A DNA stretch of 64,000 bases from Lentinula raphanica (lineage: Eukaryota; Basidiomycota; Agaricomycetes; Agaricales; Omphalotaceae), in NCBI GenBank assembly GCA_027919835.1, contig JANVFP010000020.1:992001-1056000 (forward strand), written 5' to 3'. Positions 44,149 to 61,220 of this stretch are shown one piece after another. Within the stretch, counting starts at the first letter, position 1; the number at the start of each line of letters is the position of its first letter. The notes below the pieces were generated by a model. The model worked only from the letters and a program-made list of their open reading frames with translations, was not told the DNA's origin and did no database searches. The position numbers were made by a program, and so were the translations under genes.

Positions 44149-47100
44149 CTACAGTGTTCCATATATCCGTGCCAGGTCGCACAAATCCTGTACAGTTGTT
44201 CCCTTCCTCCACTTGGGCCATTTGTGGCAGACTTCATTATTTCCAAGGCATATCCTGTCGCGCAACAGATGCCACATGATAGAGTCAACTCCAACATCTT
44301 CGACTAGATCGGTTAACTTGATACCGTATTCGGGCACATTGAGTTCCTGCGAGAGAATGCGAGTAACTGAATCATGTGTTGACGGATTCATGACTGCACT
44401 AGTGTTGACCTCATGTTGGTGCTGCACATTGAACCAGACGGGAGTTTGGACTGTATGATTATGAGAGGTCGAGCGTGTTGATTTGACTGCAGCCTGAGGG
44501 TGGTCGGATTTCTCTGGAAGAACAGAGGAAGAGGAGGGGCGGTGTGAGTAAGCAACCCAATGCTCGTTCCGAGTGAAAGGGTATGATGGTAAAGTCACTA
44601 TCTTGACCGGATAAGGATCATGGTACTTTGCCCATTTGATGGGAGCATGAGCTTCGTAAAGCCGCGCAAGGGACTTCGTAATAGAGCCCCAACAATCAAC
44701 TGTTGGACCGTTCAGAGTTGCTAGTAGTTGTGACTTGGTCGATATGAATGGTCGCAAAAGAGGGGTGAGTATAGCTTTCGCACTCAGTTCGATCCAAATG
44801 TCTATATCTTGGGCAAAGGGATGCGTTGCGCACAAATCAAACCGTACTGTGCTAACCATTTGTTTGGAGAGATAGGTTGAAACTGGAATCGATCCTTTTT
44901 CAAGCAAAGACCCGTCGGTGTTTAACAATATAGGCACTTCCGCCTTCCTGAATTGAATCAGTGCCGTGTCATGTTCGAAAACACCTGCTGCTCGAGCCAG
45001 AGAAGGTGTATGCCATGCGATAGAACCAGGGAGGAATTTCATTAAAGGAGGTTCAGCTACGTTTTTCAGGTACACATGGAGCTTCATCAGTTCTGAGTGC
45101 GCACCGCCCACGACCGTTTGGGAAGTCCCGTTAATGCATGAAATGGCAATACCACTGCATCCACTGTCGAGAATCATCTTTTCGACATTCTGCGCGGGAA
45201 CGCCTATGGCCAGCATTCCACCGGAGAGGGAACCAGTCGGATCAGAGTGGGTAGAGCGTAGCTTGGCTACAAGCAACTTCATAGAATCTTGAATGGAGAT
45301 ACAACCGGACAAGGCCAACGCCACATATTCACCTAAGCTATGCCCAAGCAGTAGATGGGGCTCAATACCCCAGGCCTTCCACATCATCCCGGCAGCATAT
45401 CCAACAGAAAATATGCCTACTGTGACGGCTAGCGCTGATGTAAGGTCATCGGAACGGGGGTTTACGGCACCATTTATCAGCCCAATCAGATTATGAACAC
45501 CAGCCGCCTCGGCCGCGGCATTGCAATCATCAATGTGTGCTTGAAATACAGGCGAACTTTGATATAATATCTTCCCCATTCCCTTGTATTGGGAGCCGTT
45601 TCCTCCAATAAGGAACCCTATTCTTGGGGCAGAGTCCTTTCCTTGAATTGCGCTCGGAAGGGGCCCAGATAGCAGTTGACGTTCAAGCTCTTCGATGCTT
45701 GATACACTCAAAGCGATCCGAGATGGATAGTCCATCCTACGAGCCGTGGTAGTATAACTCAGATCGGGAAGCGAGATCGGAACAGTCGATCTAATACGTG
45801 CAAGTAGTCGCTCAACGATCAACGAGAAATTGGTATGGGACTTGGCTGAAAGAACGACTACGTGAGACGAACGAGGGTCGCTCATGAGGGCATTCGTAGC
45901 GGTAGGGTTTGTTTGTGCTATTGGTGGTTCTTGAATGATGACTGCAGCATTTCCGCCTGGAATGATGCCAAATAAGTAGAATGTATCAGAGGCAGATGTG
46001 ATTCGACTCACCATGGGCTCCGAAATTATGGATCGCTGTGTAAATGTTTTTTTCCCCGGTGACTGGTTTCAGCGGCTGCTGGGTACTAGGAATCCGTATG
46101 CCGCATGCCTCTAAATCACCGAGACGAGAATTTGTCTGCGTAGTGATACCGATGTGGGCTGGTATCTGTCGATGTTTCGCCATGAGGGCACCTTTAATCA
46201 AGCTAGCCATCCCAGCTGCACTCTCCGAGTGTCCCACATTCGCTTTGAGTGAACCGACGAACAATTCCGAATATTGTCCCACTTTCCGATTTGTGCAATA
46301 GGCAGTCTTGATTGCTTCCATCTCTGCATAGTCGCCAGCTCGAGTACCCGTCCCGTGAGCCTCAACAACTCGAATCGCAAGAGGAGATATACCAGCTCGT
46401 TTACAGTTCGAAATGAATAAAGCTGCTTGAGTTTCTGAATGAGGAGTGGTTAAAGATTCTGATGGCCCGGACTGATTGACTCCAGATGCAATGATAACCG
46501 CGTCGATTTTGTCTTTGTCTCGTAGTGCATCTTCAAGACGCTATTCATAGTACGGATGAGCCTGAGAGCAGGAAAGCAGAAGATATATGTAAGCACCTTC
46601 AATACAACAACACCTACACCTTCTGCGCGGCAATATCCATCGGCACTTTCATCGAAAGTCCTACAATCTCCAGTGCTCGAGATAAAATAACCTTTACTAA
46701 GCCCCGAATACATTTCGGGGGAAGTCAACATGTTCGCAGCTCCGGCAACGGCAGCATCGCATTCGTGGAGAACCAGAGACTGGCAAGCGGAATGAACTGC
46801 CACCAATGACGACGAACAAGCAGTATCGTACACGATACAAGGTCCCTGCCAGCCAAGATAGTGGCTGATACGACCGCCGGCAAAGGCACGAATGGTTCCA
46901 GGGCAGAAGAAGGCATCTATTGGCTGACTTGCGAGATTGCTTTCTTGAAGGATGAGGACTCTCAGGTAACTCAATCTCGGAAGTCAACGTACTTTTGGTA
47001 ACTGTCCGTCGCACTACCGATGAATACACCCATCATTGCTTTGTTCCAGCCAAATTCGCCTCCTTCTCCAGGTTCTTTGTATCCAGCATCATCGAGTGCA

Positions 47101-51451: not shown

Positions 51452-53299
51452 ATGCCAATGCACACTGCCACTGCTGCTCTCGAAACCCTTACTGAACTCC
51501 TCGACTCCATCGAATCTTCAGCTGCTATCCTTCGTCTGTCTCTCGAGGAACAATTGCTTCAAATTCGAACCAATGTCCTCAATAGCAACACCAAAGAGGA
51601 GGGTATGGCCTCAGCTCCCGACCTTCCATTTCACATCTCGGCCTCTCTCGCCTCTCACGCATCAAAAGTGCGCGTGGCGGCCGAGAAGTTGGCTCAGCTT
51701 GTAACCCCTCCAAGACACATAGTGTTCGAAGCTGCGGGATCGGTGAGTAATTACGCTCTGTCCATGATTTTATCTCTCAATATCCGTGCATATGTATTTG
51801 GGAACGTTAGTTCTACATCACAGCTGCCCTTGATATCATCGTCAAATCAGACATCGCTTCTGTTATCCATGACAAGGGGACCAGGGATGCGAAAAAGGTA
51901 GGTATACCGGTGGAAGTGCTAGCTCAAGAAACTCGATTGGACTCGGATCTACTAGGTACCCGTGCACTCCTTTTGTTTTGCAAGGAAATATACTGAACCA
52001 ACCCCTTCGTATATGTCATTGGTTAGCCCGTCTATTGCGTCACCTAGTTGCTAATGGGATTTTTGAAGAGATAACCGTAAACAAGTTTGCGAACAATGCC
52101 GCTAGTCAAACGTTGGTTCACGATCCTGAGTTCAGAGCACACCTTGACCTTGTGTACGTGTCATTTTGAGTTTGCCCTGAGTCGGAAATGATCTCCTGTA
52201 TACGTTCTGAAACCATCTCTCAAGCATGCACGAAGGCCGCGCCGCAATCTCTTTCTTTCCTGAGCTTATCTCCAAGCGATTCGAGAACACTGCTTCCGCG
52301 GCGTCCTTGTCAGGCACCCCTGCCACCACTACTCATCCTCTCCCACCATCAGCATTTTTTCTATACAGCCACGGTCAACGATTTTATGACTGGCTCCATT
52401 CTCCCGAGCATTCAGACCGGAATACCAACTTCAACGTGGCCATGCGAGGTATGGCTCTCACCGAAGGGTTGGCCTTTCTTCCCGCTGGTATGTTGCTCAT
52501 CTTCCTTTTACACCATTTGACATCTCGGTTGAATGAAGTTCTGATCTCAGACTATCCTTTCTACGCGCTTCCACCTTCGAGGCTCATTGTAGATGTTGGC
52601 GGGGGACTAGGCTCATTGCCTGCTTTGCTTCTACCATCCCTTCAAGCCCAAGATTTGACTCATACATTCATTGTACAAGATCTTGAGCCTGTTATCCGTC
52701 AGGCAACCTTAGCTCTCAAACATAGCATGGACCCAATCTCCATCAATACAGAGAATATGGCCATTGACATGGAACATTGGATGGCCCAAGGGAGAATCCA
52801 ATTCTGCATCCAGGATTGCTTTCAACTTCAACCTCCGGAGTTAGAAGGATCAACTTTCATTTTGAAGAATATGATGTATGGTGTTTGGCACACTCTTTGG
52901 AAACCTGCTCATATTTCTGATTGTCATCTTGTTTTTCTCATGCTTTCAAGTCATAACTACCCAGACTCTCAAGCTCTCTGCATTCTTCTCAACCTGCGAA
53001 AATCCCATCCATATAAACTTCTCATAATTGATCGACTTGTGCTTCCCCAGCTCAAATCAGAGGCATCTAATATGACATGCTCTGATGAGTTGTTGATGAG
53101 TCTTGGTATGCCAGACTTTCAACCCTCCCAACGTGCCCCAACATTTTATGATCTTGTTATGGCCTCACTTCATGGGGGGAAAAACCGGACAGTCCATGAC
53201 TGGTGCAAGCTGCTTGCTTCGGCTGGATTTCAGCTAGAACAAATTTGGTATCTCAGAGCATCTACGGGGCAGGCTGTGATTGAATGTACTTGTGTCTAG
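51452..53299 (+). CDS. SAM-dependent O-methyltransferase
   Basis: Transfers a methyl group from S-adenosylmethionine to a hydroxyl, most likely on the polyketide. Exons 51452-51742, 51811-51954, 52028-52155, about 52225-52486, about 52550-52874 and 52951-53299 join in frame. The N-terminal helices (ETLTELLDSIESSAAILRLS, FYITAALDIIVKSDIASVI) form the dimerisation part usual in fungal OMTs. The SAM-binding loop is SRLIVDVGGGLGSLPALLLP. Motifs TFIVQDLEPVIRQA, RIQFCIQDCFQLQP and TFILKNMIHNYPDSQA follow; the last is read across an intron (GTATGG...CAAG) and contains the His of the catalytic region. The C-terminus KLLASAGFQLEQIWYLR is typical. Divergent from the transporter and upstream of the membrane-protein and halogenase genes, it fits the cluster. 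ATG 51458 is an alternative start. Confidence 0.88.
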
Positions 53300-53817: not shown

Positions 53818-56176
53818 ATGTCTTCAAGTACAGCTCCAACTTCAGTGCCTCAAACTCCAAGCCTCAATAATACATATGGTGCAATGTTAATTGGAGGTAT
53901 GTTTGGATTATTCAATTTCCAAGTACTGGTAGCTCCTTTCTTTTTCCTTTGTCTGTGCTTTCAGCTGTATTAGATGCTGACTGCTACTACTACCCTCTAT
54001 CTAGTTCTTTTTGCTACATTGTGATTGTTATTCTTATTTGACAAAGTTGGCTCTATCTTCTGATGCATGCTCTGTTACCTCTCCTCTGGTACTGGTAATT
54101 ATAATTGCACTATTGTCTAGCTTGCAAGGTTGCTTGACATTACAAACAATTATGTATTATGATTCTTATCCCAAAGATCCAATTTCAACAAAGCTAGTGG
54201 TATGTTCTTTCTTTCTTATAATTGAAAACTGCTGCCTCAAATATTTCTTCTATCTTTTTCCCATTAGGTTGCCATAGTCTGGTATGTTAACAAAAGCCTG
54301 ACATGACTCAGTGAAGACTGGCAGTACTGAAAAACTACTCATAGGTGTCTTGATACTTTCCACCTTGTCCTCATTGCTCAGTCTACATATCATTATCTGA
54401 TTGACAACTGGGGTGTATTGGAGGCACTGGGATTCTCAACCTGGGAACTTGACTTGAACGTAGTGTTCATTGGGTTGTCCAGTTTTGTCTGTCAAGTTTT
54501 TTTTTTGAAAAGGTCTGTAGTTTATATATGGCACAGTCATTTTTATGAGGAATTCTGATTTCATTTCATCCTGTTCATATGATCCACATGATATTTCAAA
54601 TAGGATTTGGGTCTTTAGCAAAAAAAATATTTTCCTGGTTGCTTTTTTGGCTACATTATGTGCCACCACTCTTGTTCTTGATGTTGTTGTCACAGTGCAA
54701 ATCACTCAAAATAGGTCAGTTACGGAGTTTGGAAAAAGAAAGGGAGAGATCATTGCTGTGTTCACCTCTGGTGCCATAGGTGAGTTGGGCTCATATAACT
54801 GCTTTACAAACTCTGATCTTGATGATTATTGTATTTTGTGCACCATTCTATTTGCAAGCCGATGTTGCACTAACATCAGTGCTATGCTATTATATCCAGA
54901 GAAGTGGGAGGGGTGGTTTTGGAAGGTAAGTCCAACATGATCTTTCAATGCTGGTCTCAACTTTTGGTATTCATCATTGACAATACCAGAACCAACTCTT
55001 TGATTGGTTTTGTCATCAAATATGCAGTCACAACAGGCCTCTTAACAAGGTATGTACATCTTTATCGAAATAATTGCCATGTTATGCTGATAGGTATATA
55101 CCTTGATTCTAGCTTATTAGGAGTTTTCACCCTAATTGCTGTTTGTGATATAATATCTTTCATCTCTATTATGTGTAACTAACTTACTTTGGCTAACAGT
55201 ATTTTGCTTCACCTGCTGGTTTCATATTTATTGTAAGTTTAAATCTTCATCCAGGTTAAATACACCAAGCTCAACCCTTTTATACACTGCTCATTCCTCT
55301 TTAATAATTATATAGGCCTGTAAGAATGAAAATAAACCGGCCAAGCCAGGGATTGAACCTGGGCCTCCTGCCTTTCCGGTGCAGTGCTCTACCACTGAGC
55401 TACTGGGCCATATTCCAATGGATGTTGGATTCACAATCCTAACACTCCCCCTGAAACCAACATCTACAGCAACTTTCTGTGCTTCCATGTCAATTTCAGG
55501 ACCCCTTGATTGCTCAGCAGGCTTATCTCATCAAACTGGCAGAAATCGCTGCTCTGACTGCGAATCTGTAAGAATGAAAATAAACCGGCCAAGCCAGGGA
55601 TTGAACCTGGGCCTCCTGCCTTTCCGGTGCAGTGCTCTACCACTGAGCTACTGGGCCATATTCCAATGGATGTTGGATTCACAATCCTAACAAGGCCATG
55701 CATTTTTCCTTGGGACGCTTGTATACCAATGCTCTTCTTGCCACGTACGTTAGGATCTTGAATTCAAGGAGTATTCAACATTACATTATCATGGCTGATG
55801 AGTTGAGTTTGTTCTACAGGTTGAACTCTCGCTCCAAAATTCGTGCTGCAATTCTGAAGCCCATAGAACTTAATGGTAATCTACCCAATTCAAGAGACAA
55901 ACAGACAAGGACAGGAGTTGGTTCCATGTCAATTCCTTTATCTAATTCTGAGGCAAGTTGACTCATGATGGTCTTTGATTGGTATTATGAAAAGGATAAC
56001 CTCTTATTATTATTACATATTAGGTCCAAAATGCTCAGCACACTCATGTACAAGTTCATACAGTAACGGAAACTGTTCAGTCAGGATATTCCTACAATCT
56101 GGAGCTCTCAGAAGGGCATGGCCCAATTCACAGCCATGCAGATATGAAATGCTCCTCAGATTTGGGTGATGTATGA
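53818..56176 (+). CDS. DUF6534-type multi-pass membrane protein, with a miniature LTR element at one splice site
   Basis: The exon series reads the typical plan of this fungal seven-helix-like family: a short N-terminus (PQTPSLNNTYGAMLIGG), TLQTIMYYDSYPKDPISTKLV, CLDTFHLVLIAQSTYHYL, VVFIGLSSFVCQVFFLKR, then NIFLVAFLATLCATTLVLDV, IKYAVTTGLLT, FASPAGFIF, LGRLYTNALLAT and LNSRSKIRAAIL, and a hydrophilic tail ending at 56176. Exons at the 3' end are 55695-55744, 55820-55952 and 56024-56176; the last intron has a GC donor (GCAAGT). The 374-bp element at 55319-55692 lies in the intron before 55695 and supplies a copied acceptor AG. Borders near 53.9-54.2 kb are unclear. Function of the family is unknown; members occur widely in mushroom genomes. 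It may be an unrelated resident of the cluster. Confidence 0.72.
55339..55409 (-). promoter_or_regulatory. tRNA-like sequence in LTR 1 with A and B boxes of a Pol III promoter
   Basis: 71 nt on the minus strand fold as a tRNA: acceptor stem with one mismatch, D arm with TAGCTCAGTGG (A box), anticodon arm with one A-G mismatch, five-base variable loop, and a perfect T arm around GGTTCAATCCC (B box). The loop CCGGAAA has C instead of the invariant U at position 33, so it is probably not a working tRNA. Confidence 0.85.
55587..55657 (-). promoter_or_regulatory. tRNA-like sequence in LTR 2
   Basis: Same 71-nt sequence as in LTR 1, 248 bases further on. Confidence 0.85.
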
Positions 56177-56767: not shown

Positions 56768-58585
56768 TTGAAGATGTCGGCCATGAACACACTCCTGCCT
56801 ATCCAAACGTTTCCCAAAAATCATCAATTGGATAGTGTTTCGAACTTTCTTTTGTTCAGCAACTCTATTGTGAGTATTACCCGTGGGTACAGGCTCGAAG
56901 GCTATATCAATGGGTCCATTCCTCGCCCAGCTGCAAATATCGCTCCTTCTGTCCTTGCCACTGGCGCTACGCCTGGCCAGCCAGTCATCGCAACTTCTAC
57001 TGCCAATAACTTGAACTCGCCCACCGAAAATCCTGTACCTAAGCAATATGACCAGGCAATGACTGAGCCTGAGTTGTGGAAACCGCCAATGCAAAAGGAG
57101 TTCGATTCATTGGAGGGGCAAGGATGTTGGGAACTTGTTGACAGACCGGCTGATGCTAAAGTTCTCAAGGGGATGTGGGTCTACGACCTCAAAGTTGACG
57201 GTAGTGGTGAGATTCTTGCTTGCAAAGCACGTTGGGTCGCACGCGGAGATATGCAGTGGCCTGGTCTGAATTTTGACAAGACCTGGTCAATGGTCGCACG
57301 TATGGAGTCCTCCAGGTTTCTCATTGCCTGTTCTGCCGCTCTGGGCTGGTCAACCCGACAATGGGACTTCTCCGTGGCGTATCTCAATGGTACTCTTCCT
57401 GATCATCCAAAAATCTTCATGAACCAAGTTACTGGCTTCTCCAAGCAAGGGGAGGAGAACAAAGTTTGTTTGATGAAAAAGCCACTTTATGGGCTTGCTC
57501 AAGCTGGTCACATATGGTTCAAGGAGCTCAAGAATGAAGCTCATCGCATTGGATTCAAATCTTCTCGAGCAGATCCTTGCATCCATTTTCATAAAGACCC
57601 CGTCACCGGATCACATTCAATTCATTTGGTGCATACAGATGATATATGGTCAGCCGCCATGGATGATGAAGAAGCAGATAAGTCAATGAAGGACTTCAAC
57701 AGATGGGACTGGAAGGATGTCAAAGACAAAAAATTCCTTGTCGGCCTAACACTGGAATACTTCAAAGATGGAGGCATCGGAATCTCGCAAGCTCCCTTCA
57801 TCGAAAACTCCCTGAAATATTTCGGGCTCTGGGACTCACTCTACCCAATCAATACACCTCTACCTCCGAAGTACCACATTATCCCTCCAAAGTACTATTC
57901 CAAAGAGGACTCGGACTTCATGAAAGATAAACCTTACCGGCAAATTCTTGGCTGTTGTTGGTGGATCGCGTTGTCTACTTGTCCCAATATCGTCTTTGCA
58001 TGCTCAAGCCTATCTCCAGTTCAGAACCAACCTACTCGCAAACACTGGGAACTGCTGATCAAACTCTGTCAGTACATCAAAAGCACTATCAATGGAATCA
58101 TTTATTGAAAACTCAATGGCGCAGATACCCTCAAGCCGATCAGGTATGTCGATTCAGATTGGGCAAGTAACCTGCACACCCAACGTTCGGTATCTGGTTA
58201 CATGTTCTTGATCAACGGTTCTCTGGTGTCGTGGTCTTCGAAGCCTCAATCAATAACCACATTACTATCTTCCATGGAAGCAGAATATGTGGCCCTGGCT
58301 CACAGAGTACAGCAGGCGGTATGGCTCAATAGCTGGTTGTCGGAGGTAGAACTTGGTGGGAAGGTTCCGATGTGGATACTTAGCAACAGCTTAGGAGCAA
58401 TCAGTCTTTTGGAAATGACCCGCAAACATGGAGTTTCAAAGGCTATTGATGTTCGCTATCACTTTATTCGGGACGAAGTTGAGGATAACAAAGTTGAAAT
58501 CTATCCAGTTGCCTCCGAAGACAACGTTGCCGACATTATGACAAAGTCACGAAGGAGCTCCATCAACAATTTGTTCATGCGCTAG
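56768..58585 (+). pseudogene. Copia gag-RT-RNase H remnant with an in-frame stop
   Basis: The first 60 residues resemble the start of copia gag (LEGYINGSIPRP), then after a Thr/Ala/Pro-rich junction the frame runs straight into the reverse transcriptase (ELWKPPMQKEFDSLE, ARWVARGDMQWPG, YGLAQAGHIWFKEL). So a deletion has joined gag to RT and removed protease and integrase. The usual YVDD is HTDD here: the two Asp are kept but the Tyr-Val is lost. A TGA at 58106-58108 interrupts the frame before RNase H, which continues in the same frame (RYVDSDWASNLHTQRSVSGY, SSMEAEYVAL) to 58585. The element cannot encode its own integration and is probably dead. Confidence 0.88.
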
Positions 58586-58617
58586 GACTTGATTGGTGGT
58601 ATCGTCGCCAGGGGGAG

Positions 58618-58947
58618 TGTTAGGAATTCAGCATAACAATGGCGACGACGCGTTAGTCTCATACGCGGTGTGGTGACATAGGTATGGACGAGATCGGTGT
58701 ATTGGTTTGTTTGGATTCTCAATTTGTATATTTAAGACGTATTTCTGTATAATCACTCTTCAACTCATATTACCACATTGAAGAGTGAGTATCTTATATT
58801 CCATCGCTATATGCTACCTTACTTTAATACTTACACTTCATTACTAGCTCACTTCATACTCGTATAGGTATATATCAATAGAACTCGTATTACCACATTG
58901 AAGACTCACTTCGTACTCGTATAGACGGCGGCTAGCAAATCTTAAGA
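58618..58947 (+). repeat. 3' LTR of second copia element
   Basis: 330 bp; about as long as the 5' LTR, with scattered substitutions and short indels. Confidence 0.88.
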
Positions 58948-59362: not shown

Positions 59363-61220
59363 ATGACTCCTTCTATCATTCCTGTAAAGGCCACTGTTCT
59401 GGTAGTGGGTGGTGGACCAGCTGGCTCTTACGCTGCTAGCGTTCTTGCTCGCCGCCAGATAGACGTCGTTGTCCTGGAAGCTTCCAGATTCCCACGTTAC
59501 CACATTGGTGAATCCTTATTGGCGTCCACAAACTACTTTCTCGAATATATTGGTGCTCGCGAGAAAGTCCTTGCTCATGGCTTTATACGCAAACCGGGAG
59601 GTGCATTCAAGTTGCGCAAAGACTTTCCTGCAGCCTATACCAATTTTGTACGTGTTCAATGTCCGGGTAGATGCTTCTCGTTGAAATTGAGCCCATCCGG
59701 CTCTGCCCCTTGAATAGGTTGATCATAACACTGGAAACCATGCACTGAACGTAGTCAGTAATAACCCCCACTTTGTCGCGTGCTCATATGCCACTAACAG
59801 ATAAAAATTTCTTTCAGAATCGTGCTGAATATGATGACCTTCTTTTTCGTCACGCCGGTGAACAGGGAGCGAAAGTGTTTGATGAACACAAAGTTACTCT
59901 GCTCAATTTCTCGGCGCAAGATTCTAGTCGTCCAGTATCAGCAGAATGGGAGTGCAAGGCCAATGGAACGAAAGGAACGATCGAGTTTGACTACCTCATC
60001 GACGCTGCCGGCCGTCAGGGTCTCCTATCCACAAAATATCACAAGGATCGCGAGTATACAAAAAGTTTGAAGGTAGTGTTTCTTCTGGTCTTACCGTGTC
60101 AGTGTCGTGACAGTTTCCACAGAATTCTGCTACATGGGCTTACTGGAAAGGAAGCAAATTGTACGGTGAAGGCACTGAAAGATTCGGGGCTCCATTCATT
60201 GAAGCTCTTCATGGTATGCTCAATTCACCAACTTTTGCGCACAACTATCCTCATACTTGCTGTAGATAATACTGGGTGGTGCTGGTACATTCCAATCAAC
60301 GACGACACCATATCCATAGGTTTCGTCATTCATGAGGAATTCGTCAAGGAAAAGAAAGCGGGGAAAACACTTGAGGAATTCTACATGTCGCAATTCGATC
60401 TTCTCACAGATGCCCCAAAATACCGAGCCGGAGGGGAGATGGTACCTAACAAGGAAGGCGGAAACAGTCCTGTTTACATGGCTAGCGATTACAGCTACAC
60501 ATCGAAAGATGTCGGTCGCCTCAACTACCGTCTGGTTGGCGATTCCGCGGCCTTTATCGATCCTTTCTTCTCTTCTGGTGTTCATCTAGCCTTTGTTGGC
60601 AGTCTTTCCGCTGCGCTCTCAATCATTTCAGTCATTGACGGGAAGACCGACGAAGAAAGCGCTGCTGCGTTTCACGATGCAGAACTTAAAGTTGCATTCA
60701 TGAGGTTTGTGCGCTCTTCTTTCTATTGACTGATAACTGTGCTCATCGATCTATTCTGAGATTCTTCATTGTGGTTATGGCAGGCTACAAGCAGATGCGA
60801 GGTGGACTACAGGCAAATGTATTGAATGACCTTGATGAGCAGAGCTTTGATAGAGCATTTGATATTATTCGCCCTGTGATCCAGGGAACAGGAGACATCG
60901 GAGTGGACAAAGCGAGCACGGGTAATGTGAAGCTGAGCGAGGAGGAAGTAAGGGGCGCAATGGACTTCATTTTCCGACTATTCTCGCATCCTTCCCCTGG
61001 AGCGAAGGTTGTAGAGCACGAAGATGATGGACTTCATGGGAATGTTGATGACTTGGATAAAGATGCCCGGGCTCGACTGAAGGCATTTTCACAGTATGTC
61101 CCTCACCTCATGGGCCACGACGGCGTCATGCATATCCTGGATGCAGCACAAGAGAAGATGAGACTTTCAGTCAATGGCTCTACTGCTATTAAGCTGAAGC
61201 CGCTGGGTGTCTCTGTTTGA
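59363..61220 (+). CDS. Flavin-dependent halogenase
   Basis: Uses FADH2, oxygen and a halide (usually chloride) to halogenate an electron-rich ring. The first exon holds the dinucleotide-binding motif LVVGGGPAGSYAASVLARR and the ESLLASTN segment. Further exons: 59817 onward (NRAEYDDLLFRHAGEQGAKV, then FDYLIDAAGRQGLLST), the region SATWAYWKGSKLYGEGTERF read in another frame after an intron at about 60072, then DNTGWCWYIPINDDTISIG from about 60267. WCWYIP is the W-x-W-x-I-P motif that marks halogenases within the flavin monooxygenases. RLVGDSAAFIDPFFSSGVHLA binds the FAD ribityl side. An intron with GTTTGT donor at about 60704 joins to FFIVVMAGYKQMRG and the C-terminal helical part up to the stop at 61220. 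Basidiomycete relatives chlorinate aromatic polyketide moieties, which agrees with the neighbouring synthase. Length and motifs look complete. Confidence 0.91.

Follow-up and report, generated by a model that had tools for sequence, protein, structure and literature searches.

A Helenus-type TRIM of Lentinula raphanica with a tRNA-like unit in each LTR and a primer site complementary to part of tRNA-Arg

Structure and setting of the element

The stretch of DNA analysed here (the window; 64,000 nucleotides) lies on contig C20 of the mushroom Lentinula raphanica and carries, on its minus strand, a 374-bp element whose borders are exact (Table 1). Read in the element's own sense, a 126-bp LTR is followed by a 122-bp interior and a second 126-bp LTR, with 0/126 differences between the two LTRs; the ends are TG and CA, and AGGCC (GGCCT in the element's sense) stands on both flanks. 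An earlier note on this DNA had described a repeat-spacer-repeat structure with TG...CA ends, a 5-bp AGGCC duplication, a primer-site position and a polypurine tract (PPT), and all of this stands, down to the coordinates of the element, the presence of both copies of the target duplication (TSD) and the placement of the primer site (PBS) and the tract at the proper interior ends. That note gave no strand; the minus-strand reading follows from the PPT AGGGGGAG directly before the 3′ LTR and the PBS directly after the 5′ LTR. Likewise, its broader claim, that this is a TRIM-type LTR element each of whose LTRs holds a tRNA-like unit, is supported by the TSDs, the borders, the PBS and the PPT.

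No Pfam family at E≤1 was found in three reading frames across the element, and there is no RVT_2 match within the 374 bp. A 124-codon open frame on the plus strand (window 55316-55690) runs antisense through nearly the whole element; it has no Pfam match and is probably due to chance.

Table 1. Features of the element and its flanks, with positions in the window
Feature	Position	Strand	Remarks
TSD AGGCC, beside 3′ LTR	55314..55318	.	sequence
3′ LTR, 126 bp, TGTTAGG...TTACA in element sense	55319..55444	-	
TTTATTTT in 3′ LTR, weak run resembling a Pol III terminator, immediately behind tRNA-like unit	55329..55336	-	putative function
tRNA-like unit, 3′ LTR	55338..55409	-	Rfam tRNA, 56.2 bits
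B box GGTTCAATCCC, 3′ LTR	55349..55359	-	
A box TAGCTCAGTGG, 3′ LTR	55392..55402	-	
PPT AGGGGGAG, directly before 3′ LTR	55445..55452	-	same tract before TGTTAG LTRs of the genome's Copia elements
Internal region, 122 bp	55445..55566	-	no Pfam match at E≤1 in three frames
PBS GATTCGCAGTCAGA	55553..55566	-	complement of tRNA-Arg(ACG) nt 27-40, C opposite position 34 (inosine expected)
5′ LTR, 126 bp	55567..55692	-	
TTTATTTT in 5′ LTR	55577..55584	-	putative function; would need read-through
tRNA-like unit, 5′ LTR	55586..55657	-	Rfam tRNA, 56.2 bits
B box GGTTCAATCCC, 5′ LTR	55597..55607	-	
A box TAGCTCAGTGG, 5′ LTR	55640..55650	-	
TSD AGGCC, beside 5′ LTR	55693..55697	.	sequence

The insertion (window 55050-55960) sits at an apparent intron 3′ splice site (TATATAG/GCC) of a plus-strand gene; the duplicated AGGCC repeats the AG of this site, and the exon after the insertion weakly resembles DUF6534 (15.2 bits, cut-off 28.2). 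Elsewhere in the window, a span of about 17 kb contains a polyketide-synthase acyltransferase, an O-methyltransferase and a tryptophan-halogenase-like protein (44149-46014, 52226-53299, 59773-60729), a set that could possibly represent a halogenated-polyketide gene cluster. The surroundings also contain Copia sequences. About 1.4 kb from the TRIM, on the other strand, a Copia reverse transcriptase match falls in a 450-aa open frame at 57125-57862, and a PPT stands before TGTTAGGA at 58606-58625. Just before the start of the window, two further Copia reverse transcriptase matches of equal score, in equal 1633-aa frames, lie 6 kb apart (C20:985732 and C20:991816).

A family of insertions in the genome

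The earlier note proposed a search of the genome for the 126-bp LTR, with a count of its forms and target duplications. In 49.06 Mb on 75 contigs, where search counts are lower bounds, the LTR is found whole or in part at at least 12 places (C20, C10 at 198794 or C10a, C6, C25, C10 at 1465108 or C10b, C3, C2, C1, C4, C46, C24 and C9), plus two small scraps on C30 and C27, giving at least 21 LTR copies, and this recurrence is far above chance. Because the copies on C46, C24 and C9 share 1128 bp at 99.9% identity, they are counted as one insertion, which leaves at least 10 independent insertions in full, tandem, solo-LTR and interrupted forms. Eight of these 10 (C20, C10a, C6, C25, C3, C2, C1 and the C46 group) have a perfect 5-bp TSD, around whole elements and solo LTRs; the C4 TSD matches at 4/5 bases, and C10b, which is 3′-truncated, diverged and begins with TA, has none. 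Two insertions are tandem arrays inside a single duplication, with the order LTR-interior-LTR-interior-LTR at C6 and LTR-interior-LTR-partial interior-LTR at C25.

The copies also differ in apparent age. LTR-LTR differences number 0/126 at C20 and at C10a, 1/127 at C3, 0 to 2 of 126-127 within the C6 and C25 arrays, and 6/101 at C10b, which marks some of the copies as young and a single one as old. Furthermore, the C46 group has an empty relative at C6:712581-712757, 92% identical, in which a single ACATC runs through the insertion point. The TSDs together with this pre-insertion site point to integration by an LTR-type integrase, a reading of the sequences that we regard as well supported.

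These data bear directly on the idea that the locus is not an LTR element at all but a tRNA-derived SINE or a tRNA relic duplicated in two copies. The unit is indeed tRNA-like in the element's sense, and single units exist. SINEs are not known to have a PBS and a PPT; the element has LTRs with TG/CA ends, and a PBS and PPT at the right interior ends, and in each of two copies the LTRs show 0/126 differences. The earlier note had named, as the finding that would overturn the LTR reading, units standing mostly alone, with neither borders nor target duplications; what is found instead is 5-bp TSDs at the exact LTR borders, perfect in 8 of 10 insertions, with one at 4/5 and one absent. The SINE or relic explanation is refuted in practice, and we consider it extremely improbable.

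At C3, a 1.68-kb insert, TGTTAGG...CATAACA, with TSD AGATT, interrupts the copy where LTR and PBS meet (L014, about 729-2407); the insert has no direct terminal repeats of 20 or more bases and may be a large solo LTR or another element.

Genome searches with the LTR and with the interior yielded no autonomous element with the same LTR among the best candidates scored. In these searches the interior matched a single site that does not belong to the family (C30:27701-27755, 87%). This 55-nt remnant adjoins an inverted scrap of the LTR, and frames some 1.5 kb away have a Gypsy-like look by eye; it was rejected as a helper.

The tRNA-like unit and its probable transcription

As the earlier note had claimed, each LTR holds a tRNA-like sequence with A and B boxes. 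In both LTRs the unit scores 56.2 bits against the Rfam tRNA model (gathering score 29) and is called Ser-GGA by ARAGORN, in each case on the minus strand and hence, given the PPT and primer site, in the element's own sense; the A box lies at LTR positions 43-53 and the B box at 86-96. The C at position 33 and the stem mismatches that had been pointed out earlier can both be read from the sequence, with a single mismatch in the acceptor stem and another in the anticodon stem, and the unit has a Ser anticodon yet no long variable arm. The unit thus departs from a tRNA gene in each of its marks, namely U33, paired stems and a variable arm fitting the isotype. In addition, the best fold predicted for the unit is not that of a tRNA, and this best fold is no more stable than those of shuffled sequences (z 0.25; 119/200 shuffles at least as stable).

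The score and the ARAGORN call would suit a family of functional tRNA genes spread by retrotransposition, but the C33, the two stem mismatches, the isotype without its arm and the predicted folding all speak against this. So does the comparison with the 40 tRNAs examined, which are 40 of the 47 non-LTR matches among the best 63 of 1902 candidates (the other 16 of the 63 being LTR copies): the closest of them, Ile-AAT, is just 75% identical and was not accepted as the source gene of the unit. We therefore hold a functional tRNA gene family to be highly improbable. A second Helenus family was also sought with the unit; all 21 of 21 matches, and 19 of 19 pattern matches, belong to the same 126-bp-LTR family.

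Of the 21 LTR copies, 19 have an exact A box; the other two are a diverged copy with a 3-base insert in the box and a copy in which the box is cut off. The B box is exact in 16, and the five changed copies come from two insertions (the C46 group and C10b); the TTTATTTT T run is exact in 19. With insertions not counted, variable columns number 0/11 in the A box, 3/11 in the B box, 8/49 in the rest of the unit and 8/55 outside it. The box columns are thus not clearly less variable than the rest, and conservation does not decide what is being kept. The proposal of the earlier note that the promoter is maintained rather than the tRNA fares accordingly in part: it agrees with a tRNA fold that is not the best predicted one and draws no help from the box columns. 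That the promoter is the kept part seems plausible from these sequences.

Within the element, four T in a row occur nowhere but in the TTTT of TTTATTTT, which stands right after the tRNA-like unit once per LTR, whereas 38/40 of the tRNA genes examined have a run of at least five T within 40 nt downstream. This difference makes partial read-through plausible. Two results weigh against termination and read-through of this kind. No run of five T is found within 150 nt downstream of the 3′ LTR in 4/4 copies checked, so the 3′ end of the RNA would rest on the weak run, and the element's own lack of T5 has no significance, being shared by 3582/5000 shuffles. Our literature search on Pol III terminators returned nothing useful.

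Taken from sequence features, transcription of the TRIM by RNA polymerase III appears rather more probable than not. The polymerase would start from the A and B boxes of the 5′ LTR, pass the weak TTTATTTT there and stop at its counterpart in the 3′ LTR, producing an RNA with repeated ends. If the stop probability at each run is p, transcripts of the kind that the life cycle would require, reading past the first LTR and terminating in the second, would form with probability (1-p)p, which is highest at p near one half.

It is also worth considering an ordinary Pol II-transcribed TRIM derived from Copia and carrying the tRNA-like unit as a passenger. The Copia-type PBS and PPT fit such an element, as does the lack of visibly stronger constraint on the promoter boxes. 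However, the boxes are exact in most copies, the T run sits right after the unit, and the LTR extends no more than about 20-35 nt upstream of the point where Pol III would be expected to start, which would leave little room for a Pol II promoter. Moreover, many Helenus families share this design, as described in PMC10886601. On balance, a passenger role is unlikely, and Pol III transcription is the reading that we carry forward.

Probable primer and helper, and relation to known elements

The first 14 bases of the interior, GATTCGCAGTCAGA, are the complement of nucleotides 27-40 of tRNA-Arg(ACG), except for a C where A34 of the gene asks for a T. The corresponding tRNA-Arg arm (TCTGACTACGA..ATCAG) occurs seven times in the genome, six times with 21-28 bases between its two parts and once with none. 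For five of the seven occurrences a complete tRNA-Arg body was seen, intron-bearing in four and intronless in one, so that the PBS matches the spliced tRNA. In eukaryotes, A34 of tRNA-Arg(ACG) is converted to inosine, which pairs with C and is copied as if pairing with C.

A genome search with position 34 of the 14-mer left open returned 35 matches, comprising 29 with C, 3 with G, 2 with A and 1 with T. The sole T match is the intronless tRNA-Arg gene, and a reversed-pattern control gave 0 matches. Six of the 29 C sites belong to the 126-bp-LTR family; the other 23 lie outside it. A control search built on tRNA-Ile(AAT) returned six matches, five T and one C (reversed pattern, three), and its five T matches sit at tRNA hits, two typed as Ile. 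Since this control yields mostly T, the excess of C is specific to Arg. Furthermore, the base after the 14-mer in the 23 outside C sites is mixed (A in 11, G in 9, C in 3, with C expected if pairing reached G26), which indicates that the shared block ends at nucleotide 27; a methylated G26 may be the stop for copying. The 29 C against 0 T outside the tRNA gene amount to a clean genomic signature of a mature, edited and spliced tRNA primer, and half-tRNA-Arg(ICG) is very probably the primer of the TRIM. Specifically, the 5′ half of the spliced tRNA, with A34 edited to inosine, would pair with the 14-nt primer site.

A more far-reaching possibility, which we put at somewhat below an even chance, is that the PBS is rewritten at each transposition off the inosine-34 tRNA-Arg half and that the leak at the run of four T serves the cycle. 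Reverse transcriptase would take I as G and place C in the DNA, copying would halt at nucleotide 26, and the weak terminator would allow read-through in the first LTR and a stop in the second, the mix that the cycle needs.

The C sites outside the family also suggest where the proteins come from. For 20 of these 23, a same-strand Copia reverse transcriptase match (PF07727) follows 0-8 kb downstream, in 18 cases at 2.97-3.52 kb; the sites on C5, at C17:735110 and on C27 have no Copia reverse transcriptase match in reach. The Copia elements with this PBS resemble the TRIM in the identical 14 nucleotides, in CAGGGGGAG before TGTTAG and in a 5-bp TSD, and differ from it in coding for proteins; an example at C9:1125915 has 306-bp LTRs, 99.7% identical, and TSD ATGCT. 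No similarity between such elements and the 126-bp LTR was detected in the loci compared, and at the four loci that matched the TRIM interior, similarity ends 21-36 nt past the LTR. This fading names a helper clade and not a single helper: the Copia clade with PBS GATTCGCAGTCAGA is, judged from these matches, the likely one. That the TRIM is moved by Copia we regard as almost certain.

Two other leads were dropped. The Copia at C1:2076474 has the exact PPT-LTR junction in common with the TRIM, but its PBS is GGTTATGGGCCC, and its primer thus disqualifies it as the helper. The other lead was to read the final codons ahead of the PPT as the C-terminus of a Copia pol, but by eye they are unlike the two Copia 3′ ends seen. 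We take GGTTATGGGCCC to be probably half-tRNA-iMet. A Copia at C1:2073084-2079771, with LTRs of about 390 bp that are 99% identical, has this primer site, so that Copia elements of this genome may use two or more half-tRNA primers. At C27:165395, a PBS with an LTR-like end (...CTTTACA) matches the TRIM at 83% over 36 nt with no reverse transcriptase match in reach; it is maybe another non-autonomous element.

The LTR-interior-LTR organization, the 5-bp target duplication, the Copia-type PPT and the PBS common to the Copia set are read directly from the DNA. The best overall explanation, and one that we consider likely, is a TRIM read by Pol III, primed by half-tRNA-Arg and mobilised by Copia proteins; the proteins of Copia elements with the same primer site would copy the RNA and integrate the DNA.

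Elements of this design are known. Helenus (TRIMp3), described by Kojima in 2024 (PMC10886601), comprises TRIMs with a tRNA-like unit in the LTR; its fungal hosts include Pucciniales and some Agaricomycetes (Agaricus bisporus, Coprinopsis cinerea and Amylostereum areolatum), where 5-bp TSDs, primer sites mostly on the anticodon loop and Copia as the likely helper are reported. By these defining features, the element is a Helenus-type TRIM: it is smaller than 1000 bp, has two LTRs and no mobilisation proteins, carries a tRNA-derived sequence with both boxes in each LTR, has its PBS after the 5′ LTR and its PPT before the 3′ LTR, and is flanked by the 5-bp TSD of the fungal families. It is also like Helenus in a PBS on the anticodon loop and not at the tRNA 3′ end, as in most fungal families, in LTRs unlike those of its likely Copia helper, in solo LTRs, and in tandem arrays, which PMC10886601 reports for a zebrafish family. 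The differences are that copy number is low here, that Lentinula is absent from the species table of that paper, and that half-tRNA-Arg(ICG) is not among the fungal primers named in the accessible part of its text (Tyr, Ile, Asp, Asn, iMet); Arg primers are named there for insects only, at the tRNA 3′ end. Pol III transcription is left open there.

The earlier note had raised the idea of a fungal counterpart of the plant element Cassandra. Such a counterpart does exist but is not new, having been published as Helenus (PMC10886601, accessible part). Cassandra resembles the TRIM in being a small LTR element whose LTR contains a Pol III gene unit; it differs in being a plant element of 565-860 bp with a 5S rRNA unit (PMC10886601). 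Likewise, priming by an edited half-tRNA is not new. In plant Bianca Copia elements the PBS is the complement of a half-tRNA whose first anticodon position is inosine (Neumann 2019; PMC6317226, in the part accessible), a feature shared with the TRIM; these elements differ in being protein-coding and in using tRNA-Ile rather than tRNA-Arg. The accessible part of a review (PMC13191261) contains nothing on point about inosine in primer sites. A literature search for the name Helenus, with most subscription journals outside its scope, found Kojima 2024 only, and among the Lentinula matches listed no title concerns such elements, which is no proof of absence. What is new here is the host and the primer, half-tRNA-Arg not being named for fungal Helenus in the accessible text of PMC10886601.

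These observations add a Lentinula mushroom, a relative of shiitake, to the hosts of Helenus and provide a concrete helper clade in the same genome, with TRIM and clade tied to one edited half-tRNA. If the PBS is in fact rewritten off the inosine-bearing tRNA, the 29 sites would amount to a record of tRNA editing kept in the DNA, one common to a Copia clade and to a Pol III-driven parasite of it. The young copies offer a bench system for the questions that the TRIMp3 proposal raises, namely whether Pol III transcribes these elements, which helper moves them and how their transcription terminates.
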